From NCBI GenBank assembly GCA_024655905.1, contig JANLFP010000001.1, positions 186,001 through 250,000 of the forward strand: a stretch of DNA of 64,000 bases, given 5' to 3'. The notes beneath the pieces are model-generated. The model saw only the letters and a program-made list of their open reading frames with translations. It was not told the origin of the DNA and searched no databases. A program made the translations under genes and the position numbers. The first letter of the stretch is position 1. The number at the start of each line of letters is the position of its first letter. The stretch comes from Tepidanaerobacteraceae bacterium (lineage in GTDB: Bacteria > Bacillota > Thermosediminibacteria > Thermosediminibacterales > Tepidanaerobacteraceae). Below, in pieces: positions 16,815-46,834 of this stretch.

Positions 16815-16833
16815 TTTCAAGCCGCCCTCCCTT

Positions 16834-18078: not shown

Positions 18079-18115
18079 TTTCAAAAAATCCTCCTCATGG
18101 AAGCATCTTTAAATT

Positions 18116-18865: not shown

Positions 18866-18867
18866 AA

Positions 18868-19599: not shown

Positions 19600-19641
19600 A
19601 AAATCCTCCGAAAATCATACATAGTTCTGTTGTAAAAACCA

Positions 19642-19859: not shown

Positions 19860-19920
19860 TTCCTACACCCGAATCATGCATTTGTTTTGAGTGACACATT
19901 GGACAGCATGCTTAGAGATT

Positions 19921-22492: not shown

Positions 22493-22507
22493 TCGCATTT
22501 TCCTCCC

Positions 22508-24785: not shown

Positions 24786-25404
24786 TTTCCAGCATGCTTA
24801 ATAGGGCGTTTACTATAGCTACCGCCACGGTGCTGCCGCCTTTTCTGCCCCGCGTAATGATGTGAGGGATTTTCGAAGCCGCCAGTGCTTCCTTGGACTC
24901 CGCCGCTCCCACAAACCCAACTGGCACGCCTATGACGAGATCAGGCTTTATCCTGCCCTCTTTTGCCAGCTCCAGCAGCTTGAAAAGCGCCGTAGGAGCG
25001 TTTCCTATGGCAAATATGCCGTCTATTGCCTCCCGCTCTGCCTCCATAATGGAGGCCATGGCTCTCGTTATGCCGAGCTTCCTTGATTCCGACGCCACCT
25101 CCGGATAATCAGCGTAACATTTAACTACACATCCCGAAGCTTCCAAAGCCTTCCAGCTTATCCCTGCTTTTGCCATCCTTGTGTCGGTGACTATGCGGCA
25201 TCCTCTGCGCATGGCGGCAAGACCAGCCTCCACAGCCTTTTCTGAAAATTTTATAATATCCGCATACTCAAAATCTGCCACGGAATGGATTACTCTCCTG
25301 ACAATTGCCCATTCCCTTTCGTCAAACTTTCCTCTATGCACATGGCTTTCGATGATTTCATAACTCTTTTTTTCGATTGCACCCGGGTCGCTTATATATT
25401 CCAT
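24775..25404 (-). CDS. cbiC: Cobalt-precorrin-8 methylmutase
   Basis: 209 residues. It moves a methyl from C11 to C12 to give cobyrinate. The probable catalytic His40 lies in RRVIHSVADFEYAD; GCRIVTDTRMAKAGI and VGVPVGFVGAAESKE are other conserved parts. It starts with MEYISDPGAIEKKSYEII, the usual CbiC/CobH start, and lies 15 bases after cbiX. Confidence 0.95.
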   Translation of the reverse strand: MEYISDPGAIEKKSYEIIESHVHRGKFDEREWAIVRRVIHSVADFEYADIIKFSEKAVEAGLAAMRRGCRIVTDTRMAKAGISWKALEASGCVVKCYADYPEVASESRKLGITRAMASIMEAEREAIDGIFAIGNAPTALFKLLELAKEGRIKPDLVIGVPVGFVGAAESKEALAASKIPHIITRGRKGGSTVAVAIVNALLSMLENEN

Positions 25405-25419
25405 ATGCGAGCACCTTCC

Positions 25420-25794
25420 TTAAATTTCTACCAGATTTCCCTTCGCTCTTTCGGAGATTATGCTGCAGATTCTTTCGTCATACCCTATCGGTTCCGCCAG
25501 AGCAATTCGCACTTGGGGACAAGCGGCCTTAACTTTCTTTAGCTCTTCGGGGATGTCTTTCAGCACATGATTTCCCGCTGCAAGAAATGCCGGTACCGCC
25601 ACAATTTCTCTGATTCCCTTTTCAACAAGCCTGCTCGCCGATTCTGATATATCCGGCCTTTCGAACTGAAGAAATGCCACCTCCACATCCCCGTATTCTC
25701 CGGATTTCCTCAAATTATCCGCTATTTTATGCACCGTTTCCGCAGACCCGCGAGCCCTGCTGCCGTGGGCCAGTATCAACAAAGCCTTTCTCAT
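25420..25794 (-). CDS. cbiX: Sirohydrochlorin cobaltochelatase, small type
   Basis: 124 residues from the ATG at 25794; a TTG one codon earlier is possible. It is the short CbiX form, one chelatase domain that acts as a homodimer. Metal-binding His10 (LILAHGSR) and His76 (LAAGNHVLKDIP) are present. It inserts cobalt early into sirohydrochlorin, which defines the anaerobic branch. It is placed directly after the cobalt transporter genes, so uptake and insertion are co-expressed. There is no His-rich tail. Confidence 0.94.
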   Translation of the reverse strand: MRKALLILAHGSRARGSAETVHKIADNLRKSGEYGDVEVAFLQFERPDISESASRLVEKGIREIVAVPAFLAAGNHVLKDIPEELKKVKAACPQVRIALAEPIGYDERICSIISERAKGNLVEI

Positions 25795-25858
25795 CAAATC
25801 GCACTCCTTTTAAGATTGATTCCCCTGTTGAAAGTCGTTTTTTTCATATACGAAACTG

Positions 25859-26701
25859 TTATTCATCCGTCGCCCGGAACAAAAGCTCATCTTTGAATTC
25901 CGGAATACTTCTGGGCATCTTATTGAAGAAAAAGCCTTTCTGCTTTAAAATATCGCATATTTCCAGGAGCAGCGGCTTTCTCAAATCCGTATCCGCCAGA
26001 AGCTTATCGTTTTGAAAAATTTCCGCCGGGATTCCTTCCGCAGCTATCTTCCCCGCCTTCATTATGTATACATAATCGGCCCAAGCATATGCCAGCTCCA
26101 CATCATGGGTGGATAATATCACCTGCTTTCCCTTCCTGCAAAGTTCATCCAGGATTTCCAGAAGCTTTTGCTCATGCCCGGGGTCCAGGTACGCTGCGGG
26201 TTCATCAAGTATGAGAACCTCCGGGTTCATAGCCAGCACGTCGGAAATTGATACCCTTTTTTTCTGGCCGAAGCTTAAAAAATGGGTGGGCCGGTGCATT
26301 AATTCTTCTATGCCTGTGGCTTTCAGCGCCTCCTTCACCCTTTTTTCAACCTCGGCAGCGGGAAGGCCAAGATTCATGGGACCAAAGGAAACTTCCTGAA
26401 AAACACTTCCCGCGAACAGTTGGGTGTCCGGGTCCTGAAAGACTACGCCCACATTTTTTCTGAGGTCCATAAGAAAAGAGCGAAAATATCTTATCTCCCG
26501 GCCTCTGTAAAAAACCTTGCCGCTCTTCGGCTTCAGTATGCCGTTGAAGTGGAGAAAAAGGGTGGATTTTCCTGAGCCGTTTGGCCCCAGCACTGCGATT
26601 TTTTTGCCTTTTTCTATTGCCATAGAAATCCCATCCAATGCCCTTATGCCCCCAGAATATTCAAAGAACACATCCCTCATTTCAAGGATGCAATCGCTCA
26701 T
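25859..26701 (-). CDS. cbiO: Cobalt ECF transporter ATPase
   Basis: 280 residues from the ATG at 26701 behind GGAGGT; longer in-frame starts lack signals. It is an ABC ATPase with GPNGSGKST (Walker A), VFQDPDTQLF (Q-loop), a signature that deviates from LSGGQ to LSFGQKKR, ILDEPAAYLDPG (Walker B) and STHDVELA (H-loop). The C-terminal 60 residues are typical of CbiO. It drives cobalt uptake with CbiQ, CbiN and CbiM. The deviating signature residue is common in CbiO and is not a sign of decay. Confidence 0.94.
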   Translation of the reverse strand: MSDCILEMRDVFFEYSGGIRALDGISMAIEKGKKIAVLGPNGSGKSTLFLHFNGILKPKSGKVFYRGREIRYFRSFLMDLRKNVGVVFQDPDTQLFAGSVFQEVSFGPMNLGLPAAEVEKRVKEALKATGIEELMHRPTHFLSFGQKKRVSISDVLAMNPEVLILDEPAAYLDPGHEQKLLEILDELCRKGKQVILSTHDVELAYAWADYVYIMKAGKIAAEGIPAEIFQNDKLLADTDLRKPLLLEICDILKQKGFFFNKMPRSIPEFKDELLFRATDE

Positions 26702-26769
26702 TTTGACCTCCATTCCGCCGCTGCCGCTGGCGGCGCGCAATAGTAGTAAAAAGCTATTTTTCTAACTAT

Positions 26770-27537
26770 TCAACCTCTGAAAAGCCATGCGAGAATCAGC
26801 AGCAAAAATTCCGCCAATACAATAAAAAAGATATTTCTTTGGGATATTGGAAAACTTCTTGTCAGCACCCTCAGCTCCCCGTCGTATCCTCTTGCTTCCA
26901 GCGAGATGTATAGCGATTCCGAGTCCCTCCAGGATTTTACAAGAAGCGATGATGCGAGCCTTCCCAAGGAATGTACGGATGTTTTGGCATTTATATATCC
27001 CAGGCGCGAAGCCTGAGATATATAAATTTTTTCGGAAGTTTCCATGAGTACGAACAAAAACCTGTATATAAGCTCCATGAGCTCAAGGAGCAGCACCGGT
27101 ACTTTCATGCTTCTCAGCACCGCGACAATATCCATAACGGGGGTTGTAAAAGCAAGAAAATACAGGCAAGAAACCATAGCCATGGACCGGGAAAAAAGCA
27201 AGCCCGACATCTTCATGCTTTCAAGGGTTATGCCCACATTGAAGTCCGGCAGTGAAAGCTTTATCAGCGCATTGCTTCCGGCTGGAATTACGTTCACCAT
27301 CATTGTCAGCATGCCGATTATTATAAAAGAAAAAGGGATGAGGAGCATTTTCAGAAAAATTCTCGCCGGTATTCCTGCCTTGAATACCAAAACGGTTCCC
27401 ATCATTAAGACGATGGCCAGATTCAAAAGTGCATTCGGAATAAAGCCGACTGCCATGGTGGCCAGTGCAAACAGCAGCTTTTCAGCGGGATGTACGTCCT
27501 TCAACTTATTCAAATATGCATAATTATCTATCAGCAT
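26770..27537 (-). CDS. cbiQ: Cobalt ECF transporter T component
   Basis: 255 residues from the ATG at 27537 ([20 protein letters not shown]), overlapping cbiN by 14 bases; an ATG six codons upstream is less likely. It has five or six membrane segments and the coupling-helix motif SLEARGYDGE that contacts the ATPases. It transmits ATP hydrolysis from CbiO to the CbiM/CbiN module. Confidence 0.93.
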   Translation of the reverse strand: MLIDNYAYLNKLKDVHPAEKLLFALATMAVGFIPNALLNLAIVLMMGTVLVFKAGIPARIFLKMLLIPFSFIIIGMLTMMVNVIPAGSNALIKLSLPDFNVGITLESMKMSGLLFSRSMAMVSCLYFLAFTTPVMDIVAVLRSMKVPVLLLELMELIYRFLFVLMETSEKIYISQASRLGYINAKTSVHSLGRLASSLLVKSWRDSESLYISLEARGYDGELRVLTRSFPISQRNIFFIVLAEFLLLILAWLFRG

Positions 27538-27817
27538 TTTTATTCGCCCTGGCATATCCGAAATAGTAACCGATAAATCCCGCCCCTATGGCAGCCTGGA
27601 GGGCAAACAGAAGGCTTTCTATCTCCCCGCTGGGAGGTTCCCACAGCGGTGCGAACCACGGCTTATAATCCCCATCCACCTGTGCGATGGCTTCTTCCGC
27701 CATGTCATCGGCGCCTCCAAATTCCGCATTTTTCAATGCCAATATGGGATAGACCGTAAGAAGCATCACGAGCAGAGCAAGAATCAGATTTTTCATTAAA
27801 AATTTTTTATCTTTCAT
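27524..27817 (-). CDS. cbiN: Cobalt transporter auxiliary subunit
   Basis: 97 residues with two membrane helices flanking an extracellular loop. The loop region contains [24 protein letters not shown], with PPSGE diagnostic of CbiN. CbiN loads cobalt into CbiM. A perfect AAAGGAGG site precedes ATG 27817, which overlaps the cbiM stop region by 11 bases. Confidence 0.95.
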
Positions 27818-28547
27818 GGCGGACCTCCTTTGGAACCATCAAAAGGCTGGTTAGCATTTCTTCGTTATACGACGTGAGCAAGTTTATTACCATTACGGTT
27901 AAGAGGCCCTCGCTGATGGCGAGAGGCACCTGGGTTACCGCAAATATGCCCATGAATTTCAAAAAGGATGCGGAAAATCCGCCCGGATTTGCGGGAAAGG
28001 CCAGGGCAAGTTGCAGCGAGGTGGTCACATATGTCAACAAATCTCCCAGGGATGCCGCCAGAAACACCGAAAGCCACTTCGGCCCCCCGAGTTTGTTTAT
28101 TCCTCTATACACCAGGTAAGAGGCTATTGGGCCTGCCACAGCCATCGAAAATGTATTTGCTCCCAGTGTTGTAATGCCTCCGTGGGCCAGCAGCAGCGCC
28201 TGAAAGATGAGCACGATCATCCCCAGCACGCTCATAACCCAAGGCCCGAAGATAATGGCGCCCAAACCCACTCCCGTCGGATGGGAACAGCTTCCCGTTA
28301 CCGATGGCAGCTTGAGGGCGGAAAGCACAAAGGCGAAAGCTCCGGCGAAACCCAGCAGCATTTTCAGCCTCGGATTTGCATCCACCAGCCTGCGTATGGA
28401 GTAAAGCCCCAGTATCACGAAGGGAAGGGCGAGCAGGTCCCAAAGCAATGCCCACTTAAGCGGCAGGTATCCTTCGGCTATATGCATCGCGAGTGCCGTA
28501 CGCGGAATCCACAACATCATCGCAGCAATAAACAGCATCCTTCGCAT
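27807..28547 (-). CDS. cbiM: Cobalt ECF substrate-binding subunit
   Basis: 246 residues from the ATG at 28547 behind AAGGAGG. An N-terminal signal sequence ends in ALA, and the mature start is MHIAEGYLP, whose His forms part of the CbiM cobalt site. Also seen are [18 protein letters not shown] and [18 protein letters not shown]. It is the specificity subunit for cobalt ions and the first gene of the biosynthetic operon, behind a cobalamin riboswitch and terminator. Confidence 0.95.
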
Positions 28548-28678
28548 GATTTCTGCCTCCTTAGCAAATAATCTCTCGGTCATGACATATAAAGTTGCCT
28601 TCAAACTGAAGATGGCCCGGCGTCTTCCAAAGCAGTGTTGCTTTTTGCGCCTAAATCTCAATCTTGGTTTCTCAGCAC

Positions 28679-28713
28679 AAAAAATCCCCTTAACTACGAA
28701 TATAGTCAAGGGG
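28679..28713 (-). terminator. Riboswitch-controlled terminator before cbiM
   Basis: Stem CCCCTTGACTA paired with TAGTTAAGGGG, followed by ATTTTTTG on the minus strand, between the cobalamin aptamer and the start of cbiM. It is the expected expression platform for B12-dependent attenuation. Confidence 0.85.
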
Positions 28714-28778
28714 TGCCGGTCAGGCAAGTTTGCTTATACGACAACACCTCCTATCTCTCGTAGGATTAGTGTCCGCAG

Positions 28779-28935
28779 GTACAGGCAGGTCTCCTGGCTC
28801 AGGTTCATCACTGCCCTATGCCTTCCCGGTTTCCCAGTGGCGCATATAGGGCGTTCGCCTTCACAGTGGCGGGACCGCGCGGGAATTTCACCCGACTTCC
28901 CTTTTAGTTCAACAGCGATTGTTGAACACCTGTAC
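28779..28935 (-). promoter_or_regulatory. Cobalamin riboswitch of the cbi operon
   Basis: On the minus strand the conserved pieces occur in order: AGGTG, AAAAGGGAA, GGTGAAATTCCC, GCGGTCCCGCCACTGT and AGCCAGGAGACCTGCC (B12 box region). GTACAGG and CCTGTAC close the P1 stem. Coenzyme B12 binding should favour the downstream terminator and shut off cobalt uptake and corrin synthesis. Confidence 0.95.
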
Positions 28936-28957
28936 GTGAATTATTCGGTTTTGCTTG

Positions 28958-29001: not shown

Positions 29002-29601
29002 TTATTCGTATCGCACGGTTACTTTCATCCTTCGATAGAAGCGTTTCAATACTTTTATAAAGCCCTCACCAAAATAATAATATAATATTGCATTTCCCGC
29101 AGCATGAAAGCTGTCGAACCAAATGCTGGAAATACAGGCGGCAATGAATGCATTTATGTTGAGGGGCCTTACAAATGACGACCAGTACCAGAGGTTCATT
29201 ATCCAGCCGAAAAAATACCCCCATAAAAGGCAATAAAAGGTCATGCCCAATCTGCCGATGCCGGGAAAAATCCTTTTGATAAGTCCGGCCGAGGCCCCCG
29301 CCAGTCCCCACGCCAGCATCTGCCAGGGAGTCCACGGTCCCTGGCCCATGAAAAAATTCGACACCAGTGCAGCCGCGGCTCCCACCATGAAACCGGATTC
29401 CGGCCCCATGACATAGCCCGACACCATAGCAATGAATGTGGTGGCCTGTACATTTGGCAGGGCGGCGAATACCACACGGCCCATGGCAGCCGCTGCAGAC
29501 ATCACGGCAACAAGCGCCACTTCCTTTGAAGTGGCTTTCCCCCGTTCAAAGCTCAGGAACATGACTGCGAGAACCAAAGCCGCCACTATCGTGTATGCCA
29601 T
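29002..29601 (-). CDS. ECF transporter S component (probable cobalamin/corrinoid)
   Basis: 199 residues from the ATG at 29601, which follows the EcfA stop codon by one base; an upstream in-frame start has no signal. Five or six hydrophobic helices with GRVVFAALPNVQATTFIAM and GPWTPWQMLAWGLAGASAGL match the ECF S-component pattern found in thiamin, cobalamin and queuosine-type subunits. It is the membrane specificity subunit. Its ligand is inferred to be cobalamin or a precursor because the operon begins with a B12 riboswitch and two transcobalamin-like proteins. It is the last gene of that operon, upstream of the second B12 riboswitch. Confidence 0.8.
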   Translation of the reverse strand: MAYTIVAALVLAVMFLSFERGKATSKEVALVAVMSAAAAMGRVVFAALPNVQATTFIAMVSGYVMGPESGFMVGAAAALVSNFFMGQGPWTPWQMLAWGLAGASAGLIKRIFPGIGRLGMTFYCLLWGYFFGWIMNLWYWSSFVRPLNINAFIAACISSIWFDSFHAAGNAILYYYFGEGFIKVLKRFYRRMKVTVRYE

Positions 29602-29602
29602 A

Positions 29603-31303
29603 TCACCACAGGCCCCTTTCAAGCGCAAGCTTATAATTTTGAGAAAGAAGCGGCGCCAGCGTCTCCATCGCATCTTCCACCGTCAGAATATCTGCGGCAA
29701 ATCCCCTGCACATCCTAGCCATCTGCGTCGAATAAAACATCGAATTGCCCAGGACCTGCTTTGCGGAACCATCGCTTACGATCTTCCCGTCGTGCAGTAT
29801 TATTACTCTTTTTGCGTATTCGGCGGCAAATTCCACATCATGGGTTACCATAACGACACACAGTTGACTACTGCACAGCCCTTCAAGATACTCCCCCAGC
29901 GCAGCCTTGAGAGCGTAATCCATTCCTCTTGTGGGCTCATCCAGAAGCACAAGGGAGGGATGCGTCACCAGAACTGAAGCCAGAGCCACCCTCTGCCTTT
30001 CCCCGCTGCTTAAATCCCTGGGATTTTTGTTTCTGTGGCGCTTCAAGTCCATCTCGCCGAGAAGTCTGTCTATCCTGCCGTCGTCGGGAATGTTAAAGTT
30101 CTTAATGGTAAAGGCCAGTTCCTGCTCAACCGTATCCTGCAAAAGATAATCGTTTGGATTTTGTGCAAGGTATGCCACTCTTTTTTCCCTGAATATTTCC
30201 CCTTTGTTCCCGCATTCTTCTCCCTGAAAAAAAACTCTGCCCCTGTCGGGATGCAAAAGACCTGCCATGATTTTCAAAAGCGTGGATTTTCCGGCGCCGT
30301 TTGCACCCAGAATCGCTGCAAATTCTCCCGGAAAAACACGCAAATTTATATCGCGCAGCACTTCTTTTTTATCGTTATAAGAAAACCATACCTTTTTCAG
30401 GGATATTACATCGCCGCTTTTGTCCCCGATTTTTTCAACAGAACCGGCCGATCCGAGCGATTCTTCATCAGCATTATGCAAGGGCAAGCATTTTTTGAGA
30501 ATACCGCGCCCTTCTTTTACGGTAGCCGGAATGTCGGGAAAACCCATTGCTGCAAAAAAACGTGCCACCGGAGGGATGAAGGGCATTCCACCGGCAACGC
30601 TTTTTGCAGCGACTTCCCGCGGTGCGCCTTCGATTATCAATTTCCCATCCTTCATGACGGCCACTCTGTCGGCCAAATGAAAACACCTTTCCAACCTCTG
30701 TTCGATGAGAATCACCGTCTTCCCCATTTCTTCATTCAGGCGCTTTATCAAATTGAAAAATTCTTCCGCGCAAGCCGGGTCCAGCTGCGACGTGGGTTCG
30801 TCCAAAATTATGGCTTCCGGCTGCATGGCGAGCACCGACGCCAGGGCTACTTTCTGCTTTTGCCCTCCGGAAAGCTTATCTATAAATCTCCCTTTCACTT
30901 CCGCCAGGTCCAGGAAGTCCATTGCTTCTGCCACCCGCCGAAGCATTTCCTGCTGAGGAAGCCCAAGGTTTTCGAGACCGAAAGCGATTTCTGCCTCCGC
31001 TTCGGTTTTCACCAACTGCTTTTCGGGGTCCTGAAAAACCATGCCCACATGCCTCGAAAGCTTCCGGCGGTCCATGCCGCGTATATCCCGCCCTTTAAAA
31101 AGGACCCGTCCGCTGAAAATCCCTCCGTAAAAATCCGGCACAAGCCCTGCCAGCACCCGGGCAAGGGTAGACTTGCCAGAGCCGGACCCGCCCGCCACCA
31201 GCAAAAATTCCCCTTCATCCACCGATATATTTATGTCCTTCAACGCCGGTTTTTCACTTTCCGGATAATAGTAACTGACATTTTTTACCTGAAATATCGG
31301 CAA
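29603..31303 (-). CDS. Fused ECF transporter ATPase (EcfA-EcfA')
   Basis: About 566 residues from a TTG at 31303 (GGGGGTGG five bases upstream), reading PIFQVKNVSYYYPE; the earlier frame is antisense to ecfT and unlikely. Two ABC domains are fused. The first has GGSGSGKST, VFQDPEKQL, LSGGQKQKVALA and ILDEPTSQLD. The second, after about residue 300, has GANGAGKST, LSSGERQRVALA and LLDEPTRGMD. Both appear catalytic. The fusion replaces the EcfA/EcfA' pair that powers an ECF importer with the T and S proteins next door. The linker (about 235-300) has no motif. Confidence 0.9.
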   Translation of the reverse strand: MPIFQVKNVSYYYPESEKPALKDINISVDEGEFLLVAGGSGSGKSTLARVLAGLVPDFYGGIFSGRVLFKGRDIRGMDRRKLSRHVGMVFQDPEKQLVKTEAEAEIAFGLENLGLPQQEMLRRVAEAMDFLDLAEVKGRFIDKLSGGQKQKVALASVLAMQPEAIILDEPTSQLDPACAEEFFNLIKRLNEEMGKTVILIEQRLERCFHLADRVAVMKDGKLIIEGAPREVAAKSVAGGMPFIPPVARFFAAMGFPDIPATVKEGRGILKKCLPLHNADEESLGSAGSVEKIGDKSGDVISLKKVWFSYNDKKEVLRDINLRVFPGEFAAILGANGAGKSTLLKIMAGLLHPDRGRVFFQGEECGNKGEIFREKRVAYLAQNPNDYLLQDTVEQELAFTIKNFNIPDDGRIDRLLGEMDLKRHRNKNPRDLSSGERQRVALASVLVTHPSLVLLDEPTRGMDYALKAALGEYLEGLCSSQLCVVMVTHDVEFAAEYAKRVIILHDGKIVSDGSAKQVLGNSMFYSTQMARMCRGFAADILTVEDAMETLAPLLSQNYKLALERGLW

Positions 31304-32199
31304 TAGCGCCACCCCCAGCTCAAAAGTGAGGGAATGGAAAGCATGGAAAGCAATAATGCGAGCATGCGCATATCCCCCCGGGAATACGCCGGGCCCAAAC
31401 GAGGATAAAAGTTCATGACACCGTATCCCTTCACGGTGCCCCACGCCCCGGTCAAAAGGGCCGCCGCAGCCGCTGCCAGGCAGACTGAATCCGCGGGTTT
31501 AATGCTATCCCGGACATAGCGTGTCCTCCTTCCGCTGCCGAAAGCTCTGGCATGCATGGCTTCAGCGATCTCCATTGAGTCTTCCAGTGATGACAGCAGG
31601 AGGATATATATCAGATTCGTGTATTTATTGATTTTCTGTTTGAAGGTGCCTCCGGAAAAATCCACTCCCCTGACCAACTGAATCTCTTTAATATTTTCAA
31701 GATGCCTTATCATCGCCGGGAACATCCTCGTGGCAAGGGACAGCACAAGCGCGGATTTGAAGGCAAACCGCTCCAGCATATTCATGGCTTTGTCGGGATG
31801 CACCATGATATTGTAGAGGCAAAAAATGCTTATCACGTCCAGAAGCCTCAGGCTCATCACAGCGCCGTAAAACACCGCCTCCATTGAAACGGTGATTTCT
31901 CCAAACACCGGCAGGCTCGGGCCCCGCCACAGGATGGTGGCTCCGGCTTTTGAAACCAGCGGGTTGATAATCATAATTGGGACTGTCATAAACAAGCCGC
32001 CCTTTAAAAACAGCTCCCATGTTTCAAGCCCTTCCAGCATCCACACCGAAAGCCCCGTGCAGAAAAAAAGTCCCGCAAGATAGAAGGGATTTGTGAATAT
32101 GAGGGTCAGCACCAGCAGAGTGCAAATATAAGCCAAAGACGCGGCTGGATGAAGTTTTTGCAAAAACAATCCCTTTTCATGATAAAACAGTTCTTCCAT
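31285..32199 (-). CDS. ECF transporter T component
   Basis: 304 residues from the ATG at 32199, 13 bases after the DUF4430 gene; the longer frame has no signal. CbiQ/EcfT-family membrane protein with the coupling motif EAMHARAFGSGRRT and the RMFPAMIRHLENIKEIQLVRG helix. It links the fused ATPase to the S component. The C-terminal 70 residues form an extra hydrophobic region. It overlaps the ATPase gene by 19 bases. Confidence 0.88.
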   Translation of the reverse strand: MEELFYHEKGLFLQKLHPAASLAYICTLLVLTLIFTNPFYLAGLFFCTGLSVWMLEGLETWELFLKGGLFMTVPIMIINPLVSKAGATILWRGPSLPVFGEITVSMEAVFYGAVMSLRLLDVISIFCLYNIMVHPDKAMNMLERFAFKSALVLSLATRMFPAMIRHLENIKEIQLVRGVDFSGGTFKQKINKYTNLIYILLLSSLEDSMEIAEAMHARAFGSGRRTRYVRDSIKPADSVCLAAAAAALLTGAWGTVKGYGVMNFYPRLGPAYSRGDMRMLALLLSMLSIPSLLSWGWRYCRYFR

Positions 32200-32212
32200 C
32201 GTTTTTTCATCC

Positions 32213-33049
32213 TCACTGCTTTTTCTCGATCTCATCCCATGCGGGCGCCGGTTTATCCAGGCTTTCGCTGTACCACCACAGCACCCTGTCTCCCGGCGCA
32301 AGTTTCATTTTATCCGCCGCCGTCATGGGCACCCGGTCATTAACTTCATACATCCAACCTTTCATTCCGTTATTGGATTCGCCGGCAATGCTTGTTACAA
32401 ACCCTGCGAATCTGGGGCTGATGCCGTACTCAACGCCCGAAGCATCCAGGGCGCCCAGCACCGTGGCGCCCCATTTGTCATCATCTTTTATTATCACTTT
32501 TGCGGGACCAAATATGATTTTCCCTCCGGCTCCAACTATGGCCAGGCTGATTTGCGTGCCCTCTTGCTGCCCAGCCGCACCGCCGTCCGAAGCGGTCGGT
32601 GTTTCCGCACTGCTTTCTTCGAGAACAGCGGCGCCGTTTTTGTCCTCGCCCTTATTTTGGCTTTGAGCCTGGCCGGAGCCGTTGCGTGCAGGCTGTTGAG
32701 AGTTGTTTTTGCCCTGTGAATCCTTCGAAATAGCGGAATTTGCACTTTCCGCGCTATAAGCAGAACTTATTGCCTCTGAGCCGGAAGCAGCGGATGAATC
32801 GCTCATTTCCCGGGAAATATGTGTTCGACTGCTATCCTGACTTGATCCATCAGATGCCGAAGCCTGCATGGAATCCCGCTTATCCCGGCTTTCTCCCGTG
32901 CTTTCCGGGCCTCTCATCTCAATTGCTGGCTGTTTTGCCGATGATACGGATTTGCGGTCCGCATCGCAATTCATGCCTGACAAAATCAGCGGTCCCGCTA
33001 TACCCAGCAGTATAGCCGCAAAAATCATCACATAAACCGTTTTCTTCAT
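32213..33049 (-). CDS. Membrane-tethered DUF4430 (transcobalamin beta-domain-like) protein
   Basis: 278 residues. Residues 5-26 are a membrane anchor or signal. Residues 30-165 are a low-complexity linker rich in Ser, Ala, Gln and Lys. Residues 166-262 are a DUF4430 domain with IVGAGGKIIFGP, WGATVLGALDASG, NNGMKGWMYEVN and RVLWWYS. The same domain, sharing GALDA, GWMY.VN and WWYS, occurs in the SLH protein upstream. DUF4430 resembles the C-terminal domain of animal transcobalamin and intrinsic factor. Its start overlaps the SLH gene stop codon (ATGA). I infer that it is a tethered corrinoid receptor handing ligand to the ECF importer. Confidence 0.82.
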   Translation of the reverse strand: MKKTVYVMIFAAILLGIAGPLILSGMNCDADRKSVSSAKQPAIEMRGPESTGESRDKRDSMQASASDGSSQDSSRTHISREMSDSSAASGSEAISSAYSAESANSAISKDSQGKNNSQQPARNGSGQAQSQNKGEDKNGAAVLEESSAETPTASDGGAAGQQEGTQISLAIVGAGGKIIFGPAKVIIKDDDKWGATVLGALDASGVEYGISPRFAGFVTSIAGESNNGMKGWMYEVNDRVPMTAADKMKLAPGDRVLWWYSESLDKPAPAWDEIEKKQ

Positions 33050-36000
33050 TTCATATCAAGCATCCTGTAAATCATTACAGCGCATTCAGCGCGGCTTACG
33101 GTGTTTTTCGGCCTGAATGTGCCGTCTTCATATCCTTTCAGCAGGCCTTTTTCTGCGGCTGAAAATACCGCTGATTTGCTCCACGAGGATATGCTGTCCC
33201 CGTCTTTAAAACCATCAAATTGTTCTTTGCCTGATAATTTCAGTACTCTTGAAAGAATCACGGAAATTTCCTCACGGGTTATGGTGGAATTCGGGCGGAA
33301 GGTGCCGTCCTGGTAACCGCCGACGATGCCTGCAGCCGAAGCTGCAAGGACCGCATCGCAATACCATGCGCCTTCTTTCACATCCGCAAATGCTGTTTTT
33401 GTCTGTTCCGGTCTGGTTAGCCCGAGGGCTTTCTGCAGAATGCTCACAAATTCTGCCCTGGTCACCGGTCGGGAGGGTTCAAAGCGGTTTCCGTCAACAC
33501 CGCTCAATATACCGGCTCCTGCAAGGGTTTCCACATAGTCTTTCGCCCAACCAAAGGATTCGCCAATGTCCGAAAAGGATTTTCTCTCTTCCTTAATCAT
33601 TACTGCATATTTGGAAAAATGATTCAGCCTGGCAATCACAACGTTCCTCGCCAAATCCATTACGGCGGGAACTGCTACCCAGCGCCCGGTTTTTTTATCG
33701 TAGCATGAAAGGCTCGCATTTTCCGGTTTCGCAACTGGAGGCAAAAATACCTTCAGTGTCATAGTAACGGGAGTTTTGAACAATGTGCCGTCGGGGCCGA
33801 AATCATATATTCCCGATGCCAGCTTGAATCCCTGAGGCACTTTCCCCAGGCTTTCGTCAGTGCCCTGTTTCAGCGCATCATTGCCGACTTCCTGAATATA
33901 TATTTTTGCATCTTTGTTGAGAGCTCCAGCCGGTATAACAAGCCCCGCTTCCTGGCCCGCATCAGCCATTACCGCTCCATTGCTCGCAACAACTTCGCAC
34001 TCGACACTTGCAATATTTTCTTCGAGCATCGACTTTTGAGCCTTAAAGCCGCTGATATCGGCATAGCTCCGCTGCCCCTGGACAATCACTGCCGGACCTT
34101 TCAAATCATCCAGCGGTTTTCTGTCATCCTGCTTCAATCCCAGTTTGCCCTCTATGCTTCCCAGGGCCGCAAGCGCATCTTCTGACGCCCGCAGCTTCTC
34201 TGGAAGTTCTTTGTTCTGTTCCTTCAGATCCGAAGGAACTTCCGTCGTCGCTGCAACGGCCGAGGTGGTGAGACTGGATAGGCTTCCCCAGGATGGGCCG
34301 CTGGATTTATAATCGGTGCTGTACCACCAGATGATTTTATCGCCGTCGCTCACGCTCTTTTCTGAAGCCTTGACACTGGGTATGCTGCTGTTGACCTTGT
34401 ACATCCAACCGTTCGTTCCGCTGTTTGCCTGGCCTTCTATGCTCTTCACAAAACCGTTGCTGTCCACATAGTCAAGTCCGGTGGCATCCAGTGCCCCCAG
34501 GGCTGTGAGACCCCATCTGTCATCCGATGACAGCGTAACCGAATCGGGCCCGAACAGAAGCTCATTGTTTTTGCCCACCACGGCCACGTATACCTTAATC
34601 TTTTTTTCTACCGCAACGGGTGTGGTGCTCCCCCCGCCTTCACCCGAACCCGATTCATCCTCTAACAGCAGAAATGCGCTCAGGGCTTCTGCCGCATCCA
34701 GTATGTTTTTGGTTGAACCAAAGCTTCCATCTGAATTCAATGCATTTTGAAGCATATAGTCCACAGGCGACTTGCCCTGGCTGCTCTTCCAGCTTTTCGG
34801 GTCGATGCCCAGTTTTGCCAGCGTAATGATGGTCTCCGCTGTATCCACGACGGGGTCGTCCGGGTAGGGCGCTGTTGTGTAAACGCTGCCGTCGGGTTGA
34901 AGCTGCGCTTTCATATACGCTAGGCCGCTTTGTATGGCAGCCTGTATCTGTGCATCGCTCGACGATCCGGGCAGATAAGACAGTGCCCTTATGGCCTGGG
35001 CCGTTGACATGAAGTCAGGGCAAAAAGTACCAAATGTTTCACCCCAAGCTCCTGCGGTATTATCCTGGGCTTTGCTCTGCTTCGACAGGATGTAATTTTT
35101 TACATCATCGGCGCTTATTTCGCCAATCTTTCCCGCTTCTCCTAGGGCGATATACGCCCACATGTCGCTGTACACACTGTTTTCAAAACCATTGGCGGAA
35201 TGCCGGGCCTTCAAAATGTTTGCCAGCTTCTCCATCCTTTCGGTATCCTGCAACTGGCTTAGAGCCATCAGCACCAGCGACACTGTTTTAGTCTTTGAAT
35301 CCCTGACCCATTCGGAATCGGTGCCCAAATAATCATAGCCGCAGGAATCCAGAGCAATTACTGCTTCGGCAGTGGCAAAAGTGCTGTCAAACTGAGTATA
35401 AATCGCAGCAGTATCCGAATCCTGAATATCGTTGAGATAAGTAAAGCCATCGCGCAAGGCTTTGTAGACTTCGCTTCCTTCAACGCCCGCACCGTCGAAA
35501 TAGCTCAAAGCCGTTAGGACCTGCGCGGTGAGGTCCGGCTCCTCGGAAAAATACACGCCCCATGCGCATCCGGCAGGAGTGCCCCATTCGTTTTTGTGCA
35601 CATGTTTGAAGCCGTTTATGTAATTCAGCGCCTTTTGCTCATCAATTCCGTCAAGTTTTCCCGCTTTGCCCAGCGCAGCCAGCACCATAACATCATCATA
35701 AAGGCTGCTGCCAAAATATACGGCATCCGACACGGTGTTGGCCCTGCTCTTAATCTCTTGAGCAAATTGGCCTATCATATCAGAATCGGGCGATACGGCG
35801 CAAAGCGCCGCCAGGTTTTTTGCAAGGGTTACCGTGTCCCCGCTCTTGATATTTTGGGCGGCATTTTCCGCAAAGCTGACCACCTCCTGCTTTAGAGTCC
35901 TATCCCCCTTTTTCCATTCTCCCGAGTCAAGGTCCTCTCCCGCCAGCGCGACAGCTTCCACGCAGCGGTAATCGAAAGTCCATGCAGCAGGGTCATATCC

Positions 36001-36525
36001 ATTATTTTCATAGCTTCGCTTCAAATAATCCACAGCCCCGTCAATGGCCTTATCTACTTCGCCGTATAGAAAAGAATCCTGCGAAATGTGCCGTTTTGCC
36101 AGCGCCAGCGCTTCCAGCGGGGCTTTCGTCCCGTATTCGTTGGCATACGGTCCAAAACTGCCATCATTATTCTGTGTGCCTAAAATGTAAGTAACCGGAC
36201 TCCTGTCATTGCCCAGAAGATCCGCCTGTCTTTCAATTTCTGCTTTCAGGGACACGCCATCGCGAGTCCACTTGTATGCTGAAAGGTCTTCACCTGCCTT
36301 TGCAAGGGCATAGGCAGCGTAGCCATCGATTTTTTGGGCTGAATTAAACTCATTATTAATAAACATTGCGGCCTTTTCCGCAAGCTCTTTGGTCGTATAG
36401 GAGGAGGTTGCGGCAAACGCTTTAACCCCCGTTCCCATCGATTGACACGCGGACATGCTTATACACATGAAAACAATTATTAAAACAGAAATAAAACGCT
36501 TCACTCCAGAATACCGCATGCACAT
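33046..36525 (-). CDS. S-layer-anchored intrinsic-factor-like protein (alpha/alpha toroid, DUF4430, SLH)
   Basis: 1159 residues. Domains in order: a secretion signal (about 8-27, with a possible lipobox SAC at Cys27 and an AFA site near 38); helical repeats of the prenyltransferase/squalene cyclase type over about 45-620, with recurrent AALGKAGK, ALSYF and NNDGSFG units; DUF4430 at 643-737 (GWMYKVN, IIWWYS); a spacer; a ZU5-like domain at about 850-975; and three SLH domains (about 984-1155) that bind cell-wall polymer. Alpha-barrel plus DUF4430 is the layout of intrinsic factor and transcobalamin. The gene follows a cobalamin riboswitch and precedes an ECF importer, so I infer corrinoid capture at the S-layer. 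An ATG at 36519 is an alternative start. Confidence 0.88.
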   Translation of the reverse strand: MCMRYSGVKRFISVLIIVFMCISMSACQSMGTGVKAFAATSSYTTKELAEKAAMFINNEFNSAQKIDGYAAYALAKAGEDLSAYKWTRDGVSLKAEIERQADLLGNDRSPVTYILGTQNNDGSFGPYANEYGTKAPLEALALAKRHISQDSFLYGEVDKAIDGAVDYLKRSYENNGYDPAAWTFDYRCVEAVALAGEDLDSGEWKKGDRTLKQEVVSFAENAAQNIKSGDTVTLAKNLAALCAVSPDSDMIGQFAQEIKSRANTVSDAVYFGSSLYDDVMVLAALGKAGKLDGIDEQKALNYINGFKHVHKNEWGTPAGCAWGVYFSEEPDLTAQVLTALSYFDGAGVEGSEVYKALRDGFTYLNDIQDSDTAAIYTQFDSTFATAEAVIALDSCGYDYLGTDSEWVRDSKTKTVSLVLMALSQLQDTERMEKLANILKARHSANGFENSVYSDMWAYIALGEAGKIGEISADDVKNYILSKQSKAQDNTAGAWGETFGTFCPDFMSTAQAIRALSYLPGSSSDAQIQAAIQSGLAYMKAQLQPDGSVYTTAPYPDDPVVDTAETIITLAKLGIDPKSWKSSQGKSPVDYMLQNALNSDGSFGSTKNILDAAEALSAFLLLEDESGSGEGGGSTTPVAVEKKIKVYVAVVGKNNELLFGPDSVTLSSDDRWGLTALGALDATGLDYVDSNGFVKSIEGQANSGTNGWMYKVNSSIPSVKASEKSVSDGDKIIWWYSTDYKSSGPSWGSLSSLTTSAVAATTEVPSDLKEQNKELPEKLRASEDALAALGSIEGKLGLKQDDRKPLDDLKGPAVIVQGQRSYADISGFKAQKSMLEENIASVECEVVASNGAVMADAGQEAGLVIPAGALNKDAKIYIQEVGNDALKQGTDESLGKVPQGFKLASGIYDFGPDGTLFKTPVTMTLKVFLPPVAKPENASLSCYDKKTGRWVAVPAVMDLARNVVIARLNHFSKYAVMIKEERKSFSDIGESFGWAKDYVETLAGAGILSGVDGNRFEPSRPVTRAEFVSILQKALGLTRPEQTKTAFADVKEGAWYCDAVLAASAAGIVGGYQDGTFRPNSTITREEISVILSRVLKLSGKEQFDGFKDGDSISSWSKSAVFSAAEKGLLKGYEDGTFRPKNTVSRAECAVMIYRMLDMK

Positions 36526-36683: not shown

Positions 36684-36713
36684 AAAAACCCCGCTCTCCA
36701 GAAAAGGCAGGGT
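36684..36713 (-). terminator. Riboswitch-linked terminator before the SLH gene
   Basis: On the minus strand ACCCTGCC and GAGCGGGGT form an imperfect stem followed by TTTTT, between the second cobalamin aptamer and the SLH gene. It is the probable expression platform. The 158 bases from here to the start codon hold only the ribosome-binding region and nothing else I recognise. Confidence 0.65.
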
Positions 36714-36757: not shown

Positions 36758-36893
36758 GGCCAAAGGTCTCCTGGCTGAGGTTCACAGCTTCCCCACGCCT
36801 TCCCGAATTTTTCGGTGGCATCATGTGGGGTCGCTCCCCTTCACAGTGGCGCGACCGCGCCGGAATTTCACCGGCTTCCCTTTCGGCCTGCAG
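36758..36893 (-). promoter_or_regulatory. Cobalamin riboswitch of the corrinoid uptake operon
   Basis: The minus strand shows AAAGGGAA, GGTGAAATTCCGG, GCGGTCGCGCCACTGT and AGCCAGGAGACC in order, with GGCC arms closing the element. It is shorter than the copy near 28.8 kb but keeps the B12-box core. B12 binding should terminate transcription of the capture and uptake genes. Confidence 0.93.
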
Positions 36894-36925: not shown

Positions 36926-36954
36926 ATAATAATTGAAAAATTATAATATGTCAA
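36926..36954 (-). promoter_or_regulatory. Promoter of the corrinoid uptake operon
   Basis: TTGACA (36949-36954) and TATTAT (36926-36931) are 17 bases apart on the minus strand, about 30 bases before the riboswitch. Confidence 0.72.
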
Positions 36955-37033: not shown

Positions 37034-38404
37034 TTAATCCATGCCGCTTGTTTTTTCAATAAAATGCCGAAGGCAAATTCCCGCCATTTCCTCATCTTGC
37101 TTCGTAACCGACTGGGGATAATACCTTGCCCTGATGTACGCCTCTGTCATACAGCGAATCGGCGCACTGAACTTTTCCCCGTATGTGTTTATAATACATA
37201 AAGCAAATTCCATGGGCGTCTGCGCAGGTTCCCTGACGCAGCCTTTTTGCTTCACTTCTCTCAACAGATTCACATAGAGTTTCCGCACCCTGGTCGCCGG
37301 AGCATCGGAAAACTCAACTGTTTCTTTTTTCTTCCGGCGCATTCGCATTAAGCGCCTTATTGATTCAATAACGCTCTTTTTCGCATTTTGCCACTCGAAT
37401 ACCGATTCCCTTATTTCCTCCACATCTTCTGTCCCGCCCGGCTGAAGTTTTCGCAAAACCATCAGCAGGACCGCGGCAAATGCAGCTGCTACGGCTATCA
37501 GAATCATGACTTTAAAAAAAGATGTCACAGCGGGAGGCAGGCCCCTATACTCCGCGTGAGCAAATATTGAATCGCCGCCGGGATTCCCTGCGACAGGCTC
37601 CGGCTCCTTTAACCTTGCAAATCTTTTCAAAATATTGACAATAAAGCCTAAAACATATATTATGGGAGCCACCACAGGCGTTATTATTTTTATGAAGATA
37701 TCGATAAAGGGGTTGTAAAAATGCTTTATCATGTTAAATAAATTTTTAGGATAGAGTGGATTATACGCCGAAAAAATCAGACCGGCTCCGGCGGACAGCA
37801 GAATCGAAACTGCAACAGATAGCCGGATCCATCTCTTTCTCATAGAACCCGCATAATGTTCCGGCATTGTGGAATTTATCCGTTCCACATTATAGAAGGC
37901 AAGTATAATCAGAGAAAGAATAATATACATAAAAAGAACCGGCAACAATTCCTCGAACAGTCTCGCGCTTTTGACAAAAAATGATAACAATATAAGAAGC
38001 GCAGTATAAATCTTCAGTCTGTTCAACACGTCGTAATGTTCTATCCTTCGATTGACGGAAGCGCCGCAAACAAACGACAGGTAAACCGTCACAAGCCACA
38101 TAAAGCGCGAAAAATCAAATTCAAATGAATGTGCGGGGAGCATGCCGTACAGAGCAAGAACCAGAATGCATAAGAAAAATGCAAGCCGTCGTTGAATTGA
38201 CCCCGTCAGCTTCGAATGTATATGTTCAAACAGCCTGCCCGCAATTATCAAAGCCGCAATTTCCCAGGGTTTCAGCAAAAACGCCTTGCTTAAAGACCCA
38301 CAATAGCCCAGCATTATGATTCCCATGCGCAAAAGAGAGTAGCCCAACCCCAGTATGAAAAGCTGTTTTATTATATTAAACCAGTCTAATTTGCTCCATC
38401 TCAC
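37034..38404 (-). CDS. Multi-pass membrane protein with DUF4129 domain
   Basis: About 456 residues from a GTG at 38404, eight bases after GAGGAGGG and inside the end of the DUF58 gene. Eight or so membrane segments fill the first 230 residues. A loop and another helix (about 310-335) lead to a cytoplasmic DUF4129-like C-terminus with VRKLYVNLLREVKQKGC, TPMEFA and YIRARYYPQSV. In related clusters this tail belongs to a TgpA-type transglutaminase; here no transglutaminase domain is present. It lies in a MoxR-DUF58 operon, whose molecular role is poorly defined and may be envelope or protease assembly. Confidence 0.72.
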   Translation of the reverse strand: MRWSKLDWFNIIKQLFILGLGYSLLRMGIIMLGYCGSLSKAFLLKPWEIAALIIAGRLFEHIHSKLTGSIQRRLAFFLCILVLALYGMLPAHSFEFDFSRFMWLVTVYLSFVCGASVNRRIEHYDVLNRLKIYTALLILLSFFVKSARLFEELLPVLFMYIILSLIILAFYNVERINSTMPEHYAGSMRKRWIRLSVAVSILLSAGAGLIFSAYNPLYPKNLFNMIKHFYNPFIDIFIKIITPVVAPIIYVLGFIVNILKRFARLKEPEPVAGNPGGDSIFAHAEYRGLPPAVTSFFKVMILIAVAAAFAAVLLMVLRKLQPGGTEDVEEIRESVFEWQNAKKSVIESIRRLMRMRRKKKETVEFSDAPATRVRKLYVNLLREVKQKGCVREPAQTPMEFALCIINTYGEKFSAPIRCMTEAYIRARYYPQSVTKQDEEMAGICLRHFIEKTSGMD

Positions 38405-39545
38405 GCCAGTTTCCCTCCTCTGCAACCCTGTAGGTTTTAATTCTTTCAAATGCTTTTACATTGCCACCTTTATCGCCCGTCAAAATTAGAGCAATCTCAA
38501 AACCCTTCAACGACATGACTTTCAGCAATTCCGACATGCGGTCATTTAAATATGGGGTTATGAAAATTATCTTCTCATCGCGTTTTAATCTCGAGTATGC
38601 TTTAAACATCACGTCTTCAACAGCAATCATGCTGAAAGGATGCATGCGGGCGAGGCTTTCCAGAATTGCTTTCAGATGGGATATGCCCCTCCCGTAGGGA
38701 ATGCAGGTGGTAAGTTCGGTATCCATATTTTCGGACATTACTCTGGCGTTGCTGAGAAACATGACCTCAAACCCTTCCGATACAGCCTTATTTACAACCG
38801 AAGCTGCGGTCATTATGGAAAGCTCCAGCAGGTTTATATCTATCCCTTCCCATGGAAACTGATACGTATTTATATTAAAAAATACCGCGGCCTTCCGATC
38901 GAAACTTGCGTCATACTCCCTTACTATCAATCTTGCCGTTCTTGCGGAAGCTTTCCAGTCAATGCTCTTTATACTGTCTCCCGGCACATAATCCCTCGTT
39001 CCGGATACATTGCATGAATCTTTGAACACAAAACTTTTTTTGATGAGGCTTCCCGCCGGGCTGTAATTTTCGCCGCTTTCCGTCTGCACATCCACTATGC
39101 GGGGATAGACCACGAGCTTTGCCGGCATTTTATTTATCATGCTTTTGGTTGCAAAACCAAAAATGTCTCCGGATAAAATCCTGGTGGGACCGAAGAAATA
39201 ATATCCCCTATTTTCGCACAATATCGGATATTTTCTGGTTATTTTCTCATACCACATCGCCGAAAAAAGCGCCGAAAGCATCCGCCTCTTCACCTTGTAA
39301 TGAGCCGAAGGCCTGCCCTTTAAAAACCCTACATCCGAGGGCACCTCCGTTTCAATCATAAGCCACGGCAGCGGGAGCAGCTTGTTGTTGGTTATCTCCT
39401 GAGCATACTCCAGTCGTTCGCCAAAAAAAGCGCACTCCCTGCTCAAGCGGTGGGAGAAATTTAATCCCGCAAAGCTGCAGCGGCCCCACAGGAGTGAAAC
39501 TCCTACCACCAGCAATACCGATATTAGAATCAAGACCCCCAGCAT
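38376..39545 (-). CDS. DUF58 domain protein
   Basis: 389 residues from the ATG at 39545, one base after the moxR stop codon. Two N-terminal hydrophobic stretches precede an extracytoplasmic or cytoplasmic beta region, then the DUF58 core with DYVPGDSIKSIDWKASA and LIVREYD, and a von Willebrand-like fold after it. DUF58 proteins almost always accompany MoxR ATPases, which may act on them as chaperones. It overlaps the DUF4129 gene by 29 bases. Function beyond that association is unknown. Confidence 0.85.
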   Translation of the reverse strand: MLGVLILISVLLVVGVSLLWGRCSFAGLNFSHRLSRECAFFGERLEYAQEITNNKLLPLPWLMIETEVPSDVGFLKGRPSAHYKVKRRMLSALFSAMWYEKITRKYPILCENRGYYFFGPTRILSGDIFGFATKSMINKMPAKLVVYPRIVDVQTESGENYSPAGSLIKKSFVFKDSCNVSGTRDYVPGDSIKSIDWKASARTARLIVREYDASFDRKAAVFFNINTYQFPWEGIDINLLELSIMTAASVVNKAVSEGFEVMFLSNARVMSENMDTELTTCIPYGRGISHLKAILESLARMHPFSMIAVEDVMFKAYSRLKRDEKIIFITPYLNDRMSELLKVMSLKGFEIALILTGDKGGNVKAFERIKTYRVAEEGNWREMEQIRLV

Positions 39546-39546
39546 A

Positions 39547-40512
39547 TTACCTGCCCCATTCCTCCAGATTTTCCACCGGAACCGGCACTTTTTCCAGTAT
39601 TTCCGCAATTACCTGTTCAGGCCTTACATCCTCCAGCAGATTTCTGGATGTCAGGACTATGCGGTGGCTCAATATGGGCACTGCCAGATCTTTTATATCA
39701 TCCGGAACCACATAAGTTCTCCCTCTCAGGGCGGCCAGAGCTTTCGCACTTTTGTAAAGATAAAGCGAAGCCCTGGGGCTTGCGCCCAATCTTGACGAAG
39801 CATGAGACCTGGTCTCCCGCACAATGTTCAAAAGGTAATCTTCCACAGCCCTATCCATATAGATTTCATTTATAAGGTTTTGCATCTCTAAAATATCTTC
39901 TCTATCAACAGCAGGCCCAATCTCGTGCAGGGGATTTTTTTCTCCAAAATGATGTATAATCTCCCGCTCTTCTTCCATCGACGGATATCCCATATCGATT
40001 CTCATAAGAAACCTGTCCATCTGGGCTTCCGGCAGCGGAAAGGTTCCCTCCATTTCAATGGGGTTCTGGGTGGCTATGACCATAAAAGGCATTTCCAGCC
40101 TCCTCGTAACCCCCTCAACGGTGAACTGCTTTTCTTCCATGGCCTCCAGCAGGCTTGACTGAGTTTTGGGCGTGGCCCTGTTTATTTCATCGGCCAGCAG
40201 GATATTTGCCATGATGGGGCCCGGCCTGAATTCAAACTCAGCCTCCTTTTGATTATAGACATTAACCCCCAGCACATCGGAAGGCATGAGGTCCGGCGTA
40301 AATTGAATCCTTCCGAATTTTAAATCCAGACACCTGGATATTGTTTTGGCCATCATGGTCTTGCCAACGCCGGGCACATCCTCCAGCAGTATGTGCCCTC
40401 CTGCCAGCAGGGCCGTCAATATAAAATCCAGTGTCCTTTCCCTCCCCACCATAACAGCAGCCGCATTTTGCCTGATGCGGCCGATTTTCTCCGAGAAATC
40501 CGCAAAATCCAT
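39547..40512 (-). CDS. MoxR-family AAA+ ATPase
   Basis: 321 residues. AAA+ ATPase with Walker A PGVGKT (47-52), Walker B LLADEINRA (Asp108, Glu109), FTPDLMPSDVLG and ATQNPIEMEGTFPLPEAQMDRF, all standard for MoxR. MoxR proteins remodel or assemble partner proteins, often the DUF58 and von Willebrand proteins encoded beside them. ATG 40512 follows TGGAGG. The 150 bases upstream show no clear terminator after the dynamin gene, so some read-through from the fluoride-controlled operon is possible. Confidence 0.92.
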   Translation of the reverse strand: MDFADFSEKIGRIRQNAAAVMVGRERTLDFILTALLAGGHILLEDVPGVGKTMMAKTISRCLDLKFGRIQFTPDLMPSDVLGVNVYNQKEAEFEFRPGPIMANILLADEINRATPKTQSSLLEAMEEKQFTVEGVTRRLEMPFMVIATQNPIEMEGTFPLPEAQMDRFLMRIDMGYPSMEEEREIIHHFGEKNPLHEIGPAVDREDILEMQNLINEIYMDRAVEDYLLNIVRETRSHASSRLGASPRASLYLYKSAKALAALRGRTYVVPDDIKDLAVPILSHRIVLTSRNLLEDVRPEQVIAEILEKVPVPVENLEEWGR

Positions 40513-42884: not shown

Positions 42885-42926
42885 AAAAAAATTATGGCTC
42901 CTACCAAAATCGGTTTTGGTAGGAGC
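42885..42926 (-). terminator. Terminator of fluoride riboswitch A
   Basis: A perfect 13-bp stem (42897-42909 with 42914-42926, loop TCGG) is followed on the minus strand by ATAATTTTTTT. Its 5' arm (GCTCCTACC) is also the 3' edge of the fluoride aptamer, so ligand binding and termination exclude each other. Confidence 0.9.
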
Positions 42927-42965
42927 TATTAGCCCTGCGGCACTAAAGCGAGCTCCATCGCTTGC
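42918..42965 (-). promoter_or_regulatory. Fluoride riboswitch A (small protein and dynamin operon)
   Basis: On the minus strand: AAGCGATGGAGCTCGCTT, a short P3 region, then GCTAATAGCTCCTACC. This is the crcB/fluoride aptamer pattern (GATGG..C in P1, then GCTAATG.CTCCTAC), with A for the usual G before CTCC. Fluoride should block the terminator and turn on the 95-residue protein and the dynamin GTPase. It is divergent from copy B, 127 bases away. Confidence 0.88.
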
Positions 42966-43046
42966 ATTATTATATATTTTACCATGCTAACAAAATTTAA
43001 GCATATATTTTTGGATTTGTCAAATTGAAATAATTTTTTTTTGACA

Positions 43047-43075: not shown

Positions 43076-43092
43076 ATATCTAAATTATGAAA

Positions 43093-43140
43093 TGCGGTGA
43101 TGGAGCTCACCATAAAAGCAGAATGCTGATGGCTCCTGCT
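43093..43140 (+). promoter_or_regulatory. Fluoride riboswitch B (MutS-like operon)
   Basis: GCGGTGATGGAGCTCACC, then GCAGAATGCTGATGGCTCCTGC: a close match to the fluoride (crcB) aptamer with all conserved blocks. It precedes a terminator and the two MutS-like genes. Part of the 560-base gene-free region 42761-43321, which otherwise holds copy A, the promoters and a 140-base leader. Confidence 0.93.
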
Positions 43141-43179
43141 GTAATGAGTATTATCATTAGGGCAGGAGCCTTAATTTTT
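43131..43179 (+). terminator. Terminator of fluoride riboswitch B
   Basis: GGCTCCTGC pairs with GCAGGAGCC, with a second inner stem TAATGA with TCATTA, followed by TTAATTTTT. The 5' arm is shared with the aptamer, as expected for transcription control. Confidence 0.9.
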
Positions 43180-46680: not shown

Positions 46681-46756
46681 TATTGCCAATAGTTTCTGCT
46701 TTTCTAAATAAATTAAACCATAAGTCCAAAAGTTTGTCAAATAATTTTACAATGAT

Positions 46757-46802
46757 AGGGTGATGGAGCTCACCAAAATCGCATCAGGCTAATGGCTCCT
46801 AC
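46757..46802 (+). promoter_or_regulatory. Fluoride riboswitch D (antiporter and UspA operon)
   Basis: GGGTGATGGAGCTCACC, then CAGGCTAATGGCTCCTAC: a fluoride aptamer upstream of the antiporter and universal stress genes. It is divergent from copy C across about 75 bases, mirroring the A/B pair. Confidence 0.93.
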
Positions 46803-46834
46803 TATATCGTGAATATGGTAGGGGTATTTTTTTT
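46798..46834 (+). terminator. Terminator of fluoride riboswitch D
   Basis: CCTACTATAT pairs with ATATGGTAGG around a short loop, followed by a T-rich tract ending in eight or more T. It shares its 5' arm with aptamer D. Confidence 0.85.

Follow-up and report, generated by a model that had tools for sequence, protein, structure and literature searches.

The window analysed here, a stretch of 64,000 nucleotides from a Tepidanaerobacteraceae bacterium, carries an operon in which a cobalamin riboswitch stands before the gene for a 1159-aa surface protein, followed by a gene for a 278-aa protein and by the three genes of an ECF importer; beyond these lie a second cobalamin riboswitch and a corrin operon. 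The features, all on the minus strand, are as follows.

36926..36954 (-): sigma-70-like promoter, TTGACA-17-TATTAT, agreeing with the consensus at 11/12 positions; the region has 2 such sites where 0.5 would be expected
36764..36881 (-): core of the aptamer of a cobalamin riboswitch, spanning model positions 45-169 of RF00174 (93.2 bits, E 7.5e-22; cut-off 31.5)
36684..36712 (-): terminator-like hairpin and T run between aptamer and gene, the probable expression platform, from by-eye reading and RNA folding
33046..36525 (-): surface protein, 1159 aa, ATG ORF, with signal peptide, two alpha/alpha toroids, DUF4430, a ZU5-like domain and three SLH repeats
35344..36393 (-): first toroid-like segment, residues ~45-394; the toroid-toroid boundary is approximate, and as a separate unit the segment is absent from short-form homologues
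34648..35343 (-): second toroid segment, residues ~395-626, from predicted structure and internal duplication
34318..34602 (-): DUF4430, transcobalamin beta-domain-like, residues ~642-736 (Pfam 677-736, E 9e-13)
33745..33996 (-): ZU5-like domain, residues 844-927 (Pfam E 5.6e-5, marginal, just over the cut-off)
33055..33585 (-): three SLH repeats, residues ~981-1157, a cell-wall/S-layer anchor (Pfam E 5.9e-42)
32213..33049 (-): 278-aa protein with N-terminal membrane segment, Ser-rich linker and C-terminal DUF4430; its start overlaps the 3' end of the 1159-aa gene
31285..32301 (-): EcfT (CbiQ family), transmembrane coupling protein (PF02361 E 1e-13)
29603..31444 (-): fused EcfA-EcfA' ATPase (TIGR04520 E 2e-124)
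29002..29673 (-): CbrT-like ECF S component (6FNP chain A, single-sequence E 1e-11; profile E 3.7e-29)
28767..28948 (-): another cobalamin riboswitch, preceding cbiM and the operon for de novo corrin synthesis (RF00174, 120.5 bits)
11494-28727 (-): complete corrin/uroporphyrinogen operon behind the second riboswitch, genes named by reading their sequences

The initial annotation had placed the large protein at 33046-36525, coordinates that proved exact, and had put a cobalamin riboswitch before it, which the RF00174 match on the same strand bears out. The hairpin between aptamer and gene was not flagged by a strict terminator scan. Among close homologues of the 1159-aa protein, picked by protein similarity alone, the riboswitch lies upstream in 18/18 of the loci that include upstream DNA, which excludes a chance arrangement, and all three DUF4430 genes of the host genome sit behind riboswitches. 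In some relatives a tandem pair of cobalamin riboswitches precedes the gene (L015, L016, L017, L025, L028, G001:C45).

Read by eye, the export signal of the 1159-aa protein consists of a hydrophobic N-terminal segment followed by AFA-A. The Pfam scan returned only SLH, DUF4430 and ZU5, with no match to DUF4465 (a model for B12-binding proteins), and the helical-repeat domain has no Pfam match, PF01122 (Cobalamin_bind) included. Among 28 aligned relatives, toroid matches are to Prenyltrans (8/28) and SQHop_cyclase_C (9/28), and PF01122 matches weakly in 4/28, at best with E 0.0016. The claimed union of a helical-repeat domain, DUF4430, a ZU5-like domain and three SLH domains in one protein thus holds, through Pfam and, for the toroid, through the fold predicted by AlphaFold2. 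The two toroids are an internal duplication (BLASTP E 4e-11; hhalign 98%), and one-toroid homologues (L012, L070, L017, L022, L100) have the layout of intrinsic factor, a toroid and then DUF4430. Searched by sequence against the PDB, the full protein finds SLH structures only, its SLH part matching the Sap SLH structure 6bt4 (E 3e-17); the SLH repeats are there to be seen, and through them the protein would be tethered in the wall or S-layer.

The importer and the neighbouring corrin operon

An ECF importer had been claimed behind the gene, and its parts are indeed all present: EcfT, the fused EcfA-EcfA' ATPase and an S component. Against all PDB chain sequences, the sole match of the S component is CbrT (6FNP chain A, E 1e-11), and a profile built from 22 operon S components reaches 6FNP chain A at 3.7e-29, the next S component following only at 0.005. 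The 6FNP entry is ECF-CbrT of Lactobacillus delbrueckii, for which import of cobalamin and cobinamide has been shown biochemically (PMC5997447). The 278-aa protein encoded between the surface protein and the importer is predicted to be a second binding module, given its own DUF4430 domain.

Could the system instead serve cobalt, another cobalt complex or a tetrapyrrole, and not a finished corrinoid? Cobalt import genes, too, are placed under cobalamin riboswitches, EcfT belongs to the CbiQ family, and CbiM-Q-O, with its CbiM cobalt importer, adjoins the locus together with corrin biosynthesis genes under the second riboswitch. However, the S component is CbrT-like and not CbiM, so the importer is of the B12 type and not the cobalt type; the adjoining operon already provides a full CbiMQO for cobalt; hemin is not accepted by ECF-CbrT (PMC5997447); and the carrier fold, described below, is that of B12 binders. 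We therefore regard this alternative as unlikely, and a corrinoid as the probable cargo.

The corrin operon next door holds cbiM, Q, O, C, D, E, T, L, F, G, H and J, as well as hemA, hemC, cobA/hemD, hemB, a sirC-like gene and hemL, the cbiD match having an E of 5e-100. Judged by these genes, the host is a B12 producer with a complete anaerobic corrin pathway beside the operon of the surface protein. The benefit of a corrinoid trap is less obvious in an organism that makes corrin itself and, as a complete operon adjoins, the trap would supplement and not replace synthesis; the system is best seen as one for the salvage of scarce corrinoids, or the recapture of lost ones, alongside synthesis.

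Further genes and RNA elements of the host lie around these two operons or recall them. Directly upstream of the riboswitch operon are genes for a MoxR-type AAA ATPase, DUF58 and DUF4129 (window 37034-40512, (-)), and the MoxR and DUF58 gene types recur on the host's contig C5 in a second riboswitch-linked surface cluster (L060 8751-10136, L071 9991-11607). There, RF00174 (C5:44460-44653) is followed by a 461-aa DUF4430 lipoprotein, by MoxR ATPase, DUF58 and BatA/VWA genes and then a toroid and SLH protein without DUF4430. In a genome of the same genus (G012, contig C2; L067, L068), tandem giant proteins of ~970-1950 aa, which combine SLH, CARDB and Ig-like domains with one or two copies of DUF4430, share a cluster with two cobalamin riboswitches. 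The window also contains three fluoride riboswitches, at 42913-42971 (-), 43087-43145 (+) and 46750-46808 (+), of which two form a divergent, back-to-back pair, and a c-di-GMP-I riboswitch at 62365-62449 (-), scoring 83 bits.

Predicted structure and the animal B12 carriers

Animal transcobalamin and intrinsic factor bind B12 between an alpha/alpha toroid and a beta-domain. AlphaFold2 models residues 38-748 of the 1159-aa protein with a mean pLDDT of 90.8 (28 homologues as input) and an alpha/alpha toroid fold, and a single-toroid form with a mean pLDDT of 82. When the single-toroid form was compared by Foldseek with ~350,000 PDB chains, ranks 1-12 were all transcobalamin, haptocorrin and intrinsic factor, with which it aligns end to end, in the same domain order and at 12-15% identity. 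For the long form, haptocorrin is the top match and B12 carriers make up 14 of the first 17.

Superposition on transcobalamin, proposed earlier as a check, gave a divided answer: fold and domain order match, but the models do not fit as one rigid body, with an rmsd of 15-25 A (for the chain as a whole, ~24 A). TM is 0.36-0.46 for the short form against the carriers and lower for the long form. The linker has a pLDDT <50, and the modelled mutual orientation of the domains is unlike that of transcobalamin. Given this non-rigid superposition and low-confidence linker, it is by inference that we place the ligand between the two domains. No His is conserved across the second toroid and DUF4430 in the aligned homologues, so no cobalt ligand can be named.

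By sequence, the DUF4430 profile has transcobalamin-1 as its best PDB match, a weak one (E 0.009), and the toroid profile finds squalene cyclases best and prenyltransferases too, all weakly, so the kinship of the toroid with transcobalamin rests on structure comparison. These same matches, together with those of the squalene-hopene cyclase C-terminal and Prenyltrans models in some relatives, are what might lead one to see in the toroid a surface enzyme that modifies corrinoids, akin to prenyltransferases or cyclases, and not a carrier. Yet in the Foldseek comparisons the B12 carriers outrank the other toroid-bearing proteins among the hits, which are squalene cyclases, prenyltransferases and complement thioester domains. 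The 1159-aa protein also lacks DxDD, the acid motif found in squalene-hopene cyclases, as do 26/28 aligned sequences. We rejected the enzymatic toroid on the lack of DxDD in the 1159-aa protein, and give it barely any credence. The CGEQ thioester motif is likewise absent from the protein.

Linkage and operon content across the Bacillota

Of 299 evenly drawn Bacillota genomes, 90 contain DUF4430. Among the matches listed, 104/141 DUF4430 domains follow RF00174 on the same strand at a distance of up to 6 kb and 110/141 at up to 10 kb, with opposite-strand controls of 0 and 2, respectively; had homologues mostly stood away from B12 genes, the initial reading would have been in difficulty, and the reverse is found. 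Of the DUF4430 proteins of at least 800 aa, 48/53 fall within 10 kb of a riboswitch, and the remaining 5/53 are on contigs where no riboswitch could be read upstream. A generic surface domain unrelated to B12 can thus be rejected for the large proteins, given this phylum-wide linkage. The DUF4430 proteins of genomes without any RF00174 are mostly small, and two of these (L082, L094) adjoin CbrT-like S genes. What appears to be a minimal form (L082, L094, L086/L142), in which a small DUF4430 protein stands beside a CbrT-like S gene and both toroid and SLH are missing, offers a lead for the identity of cbrS in the nrdJ-cbrS-cbrT-pduO cluster of L. delbrueckii.

A set of 40 loci from across the phylum was chosen for a riboswitch before DUF4430, and their counts therefore measure operon content and not linkage. 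EcfT and EcfA are each present in 35/40, and an S gene in 24/40, several of the stretches stopping short of it. A protein with both DUF4430 and SLH occurs in 37/40 loci, and toroid, DUF4430 and SLH meet in one protein in 27/40. The operon is conserved. At least two DUF4430 genes are found in 34/40 loci and a separate toroid-only gene in 21/40; these toroid-only and DUF4430-only genes suggest that the two halves could also work as separate proteins.

This content also bears on whether the large protein has a chiefly structural role, as an S-layer component or adhesin that simply shares a transcript with a B12 importer. SLH and ZU5-like domains, and the Big-type Ig domains of relatives, are certainly common among structural surface proteins. 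On the other hand, the large protein keeps a constant place in many families, its gene coming first after the riboswitch, and SLH was not detected in some forms (L029, L030); the frequency of second DUF4430 and toroid-only genes indicates that the carrier domains, and not the anchors, are the conserved core. A mainly structural role is accordingly very unlikely in our view, and a carrier held at the surface is the reading we retain.

Among DUF4430-bearing genomes, cbiD is present in 39/73. A 2007 study had said that the hosts of such proteins usually lack B12 synthesis (Burroughs et al. 2007, PMC1796856), a statement that this larger sample does not bear out.

The proposed trap and known B12 systems

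We conclude, with a probability of about 0.82, that the locus encodes a riboswitch-controlled surface corrinoid trap feeding ECF-CbrT. A cell-surface corrinoid trap was already the reading of the initial annotation, and it is now supported by three independent lines: fold, regulation and transport partner. When intracellular cobalamin is low, the riboswitch would let transcription pass, and at high B12 it would repress. The 1159-aa protein would then be secreted and held to the cell wall or S-layer by its three SLH repeats, where a corrinoid could be gripped between the alpha/alpha toroid and the DUF4430 beta-domain, as the predicted fold and domain order suggest. The ligand may be handed to the membrane-anchored 278-aa DUF4430 protein and from there to the CbrT-like S component, for whose inward transport, by homology, the EcfT/EcfAA' module would provide the power.

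Taken together, our results suggest that B12 is caught by many Gram-positive bacteria using the two-domain design of animals. A bolder proposal, which we put forward tentatively and with the odds somewhat against it, is that Gram-positives possess a complete relay of the intrinsic-factor type, made up of a two-headed (two-toroid) S-layer carrier, a membrane DUF4430 acceptor and, in numerous species, stand-alone toroid and DUF4430 proteins which assemble around the ligand and hand it to ECF-CbrT; that monoderm anaerobes, B12 producers included, capture B12 at their surface chiefly by this route; and that a system of this kind was ancestral to the animal carriers. How thick-walled, S-layered bacteria gather B12 before it reaches a membrane transporter has been little studied, and the published characterisation of CbrT involved no capture partner (PMC5997447). 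A conserved, riboswitch-controlled carrier of intrinsic-factor design offers a direct bench test, and the carrier reading gives an annotation to DUF4430, still a domain of unknown function.

The idea of a trap is less new than the initial annotation implied, because it was predicted in 2007. Burroughs et al. described secreted toroid-SLBB proteins of Gram-positive bacteria, with paired SLBB genes per operon and CbiO/CbiQ neighbours, predicted a role in B12 scavenging and proposed transfer to animals (PMC1796856). The locus fits their transcobalamin-like SLBB clade (PF14478), with its SLBB/DUF4430 domain and toroid, secretion and CbiO/CbiQ-like genes, and our finding supports their view of Gram-positive bacteria as the source from which animals acquired transcobalamin-like proteins. 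Riboswitch, S-layer, SLH and S component go unmentioned in the text of that paper (PMC1796856), and the open-access literature, to which our survey was confined, yielded no study of the bacterial proteins beyond it and no later experiments. What is new here is the riboswitch linkage, CbrT, the SLH anchoring and the toroid duplication, as well as operons in which toroid and DUF4430 are encoded by separate genes, and the presence of the system in B12 makers (the host, and roughly half of those tested). Evidence on regulation, transporter and anchoring makes the old scavenging prediction firm and testable. In another member of the Clostridia, corrinoid-starvation proteomics of Dehalobacter reported cobalamin-riboswitch repression, with such a protein unmentioned (PMC4285132).

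How, then, does the system compare with those already known? With ECF-CbrT of Lactobacillus delbrueckii (PMC5997447, 6FNP) it shares a homologous S component and an ECF module; unlike that published complex, the locus encodes an ECF module of its own within the operon, along with a putative surface capture protein. With BtuG of Bacteroides it would share surface-exposed B12 capture by a protein from riboswitch-controlled loci, but BtuG is a lipoprotein that serves a TonB-dependent outer-membrane transporter, and that study found no BtuG homologues outside the Bacteroidetes (PMC6143338). Our scans saw no sequence relation between the two, BtuG being judged from PMC6143338; the trap would be its functional counterpart in other gut and anaerobic communities. 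Closest of all in design are transcobalamin, haptocorrin and intrinsic factor, the nearest structures in the whole PDB, which likewise have an alpha/alpha toroid at the N terminus and, after it, a beta-grasp domain of the DUF4430 type. The 1159-aa protein departs from these animal carriers in its low sequence identity, its second toroid, its ZU5 and SLH domains and the modelled orientation of its domains; and whereas the animal carriers are soluble and taken up by receptor endocytosis, the bacterial carrier would be bound to the cell and coupled to an ECF importer.
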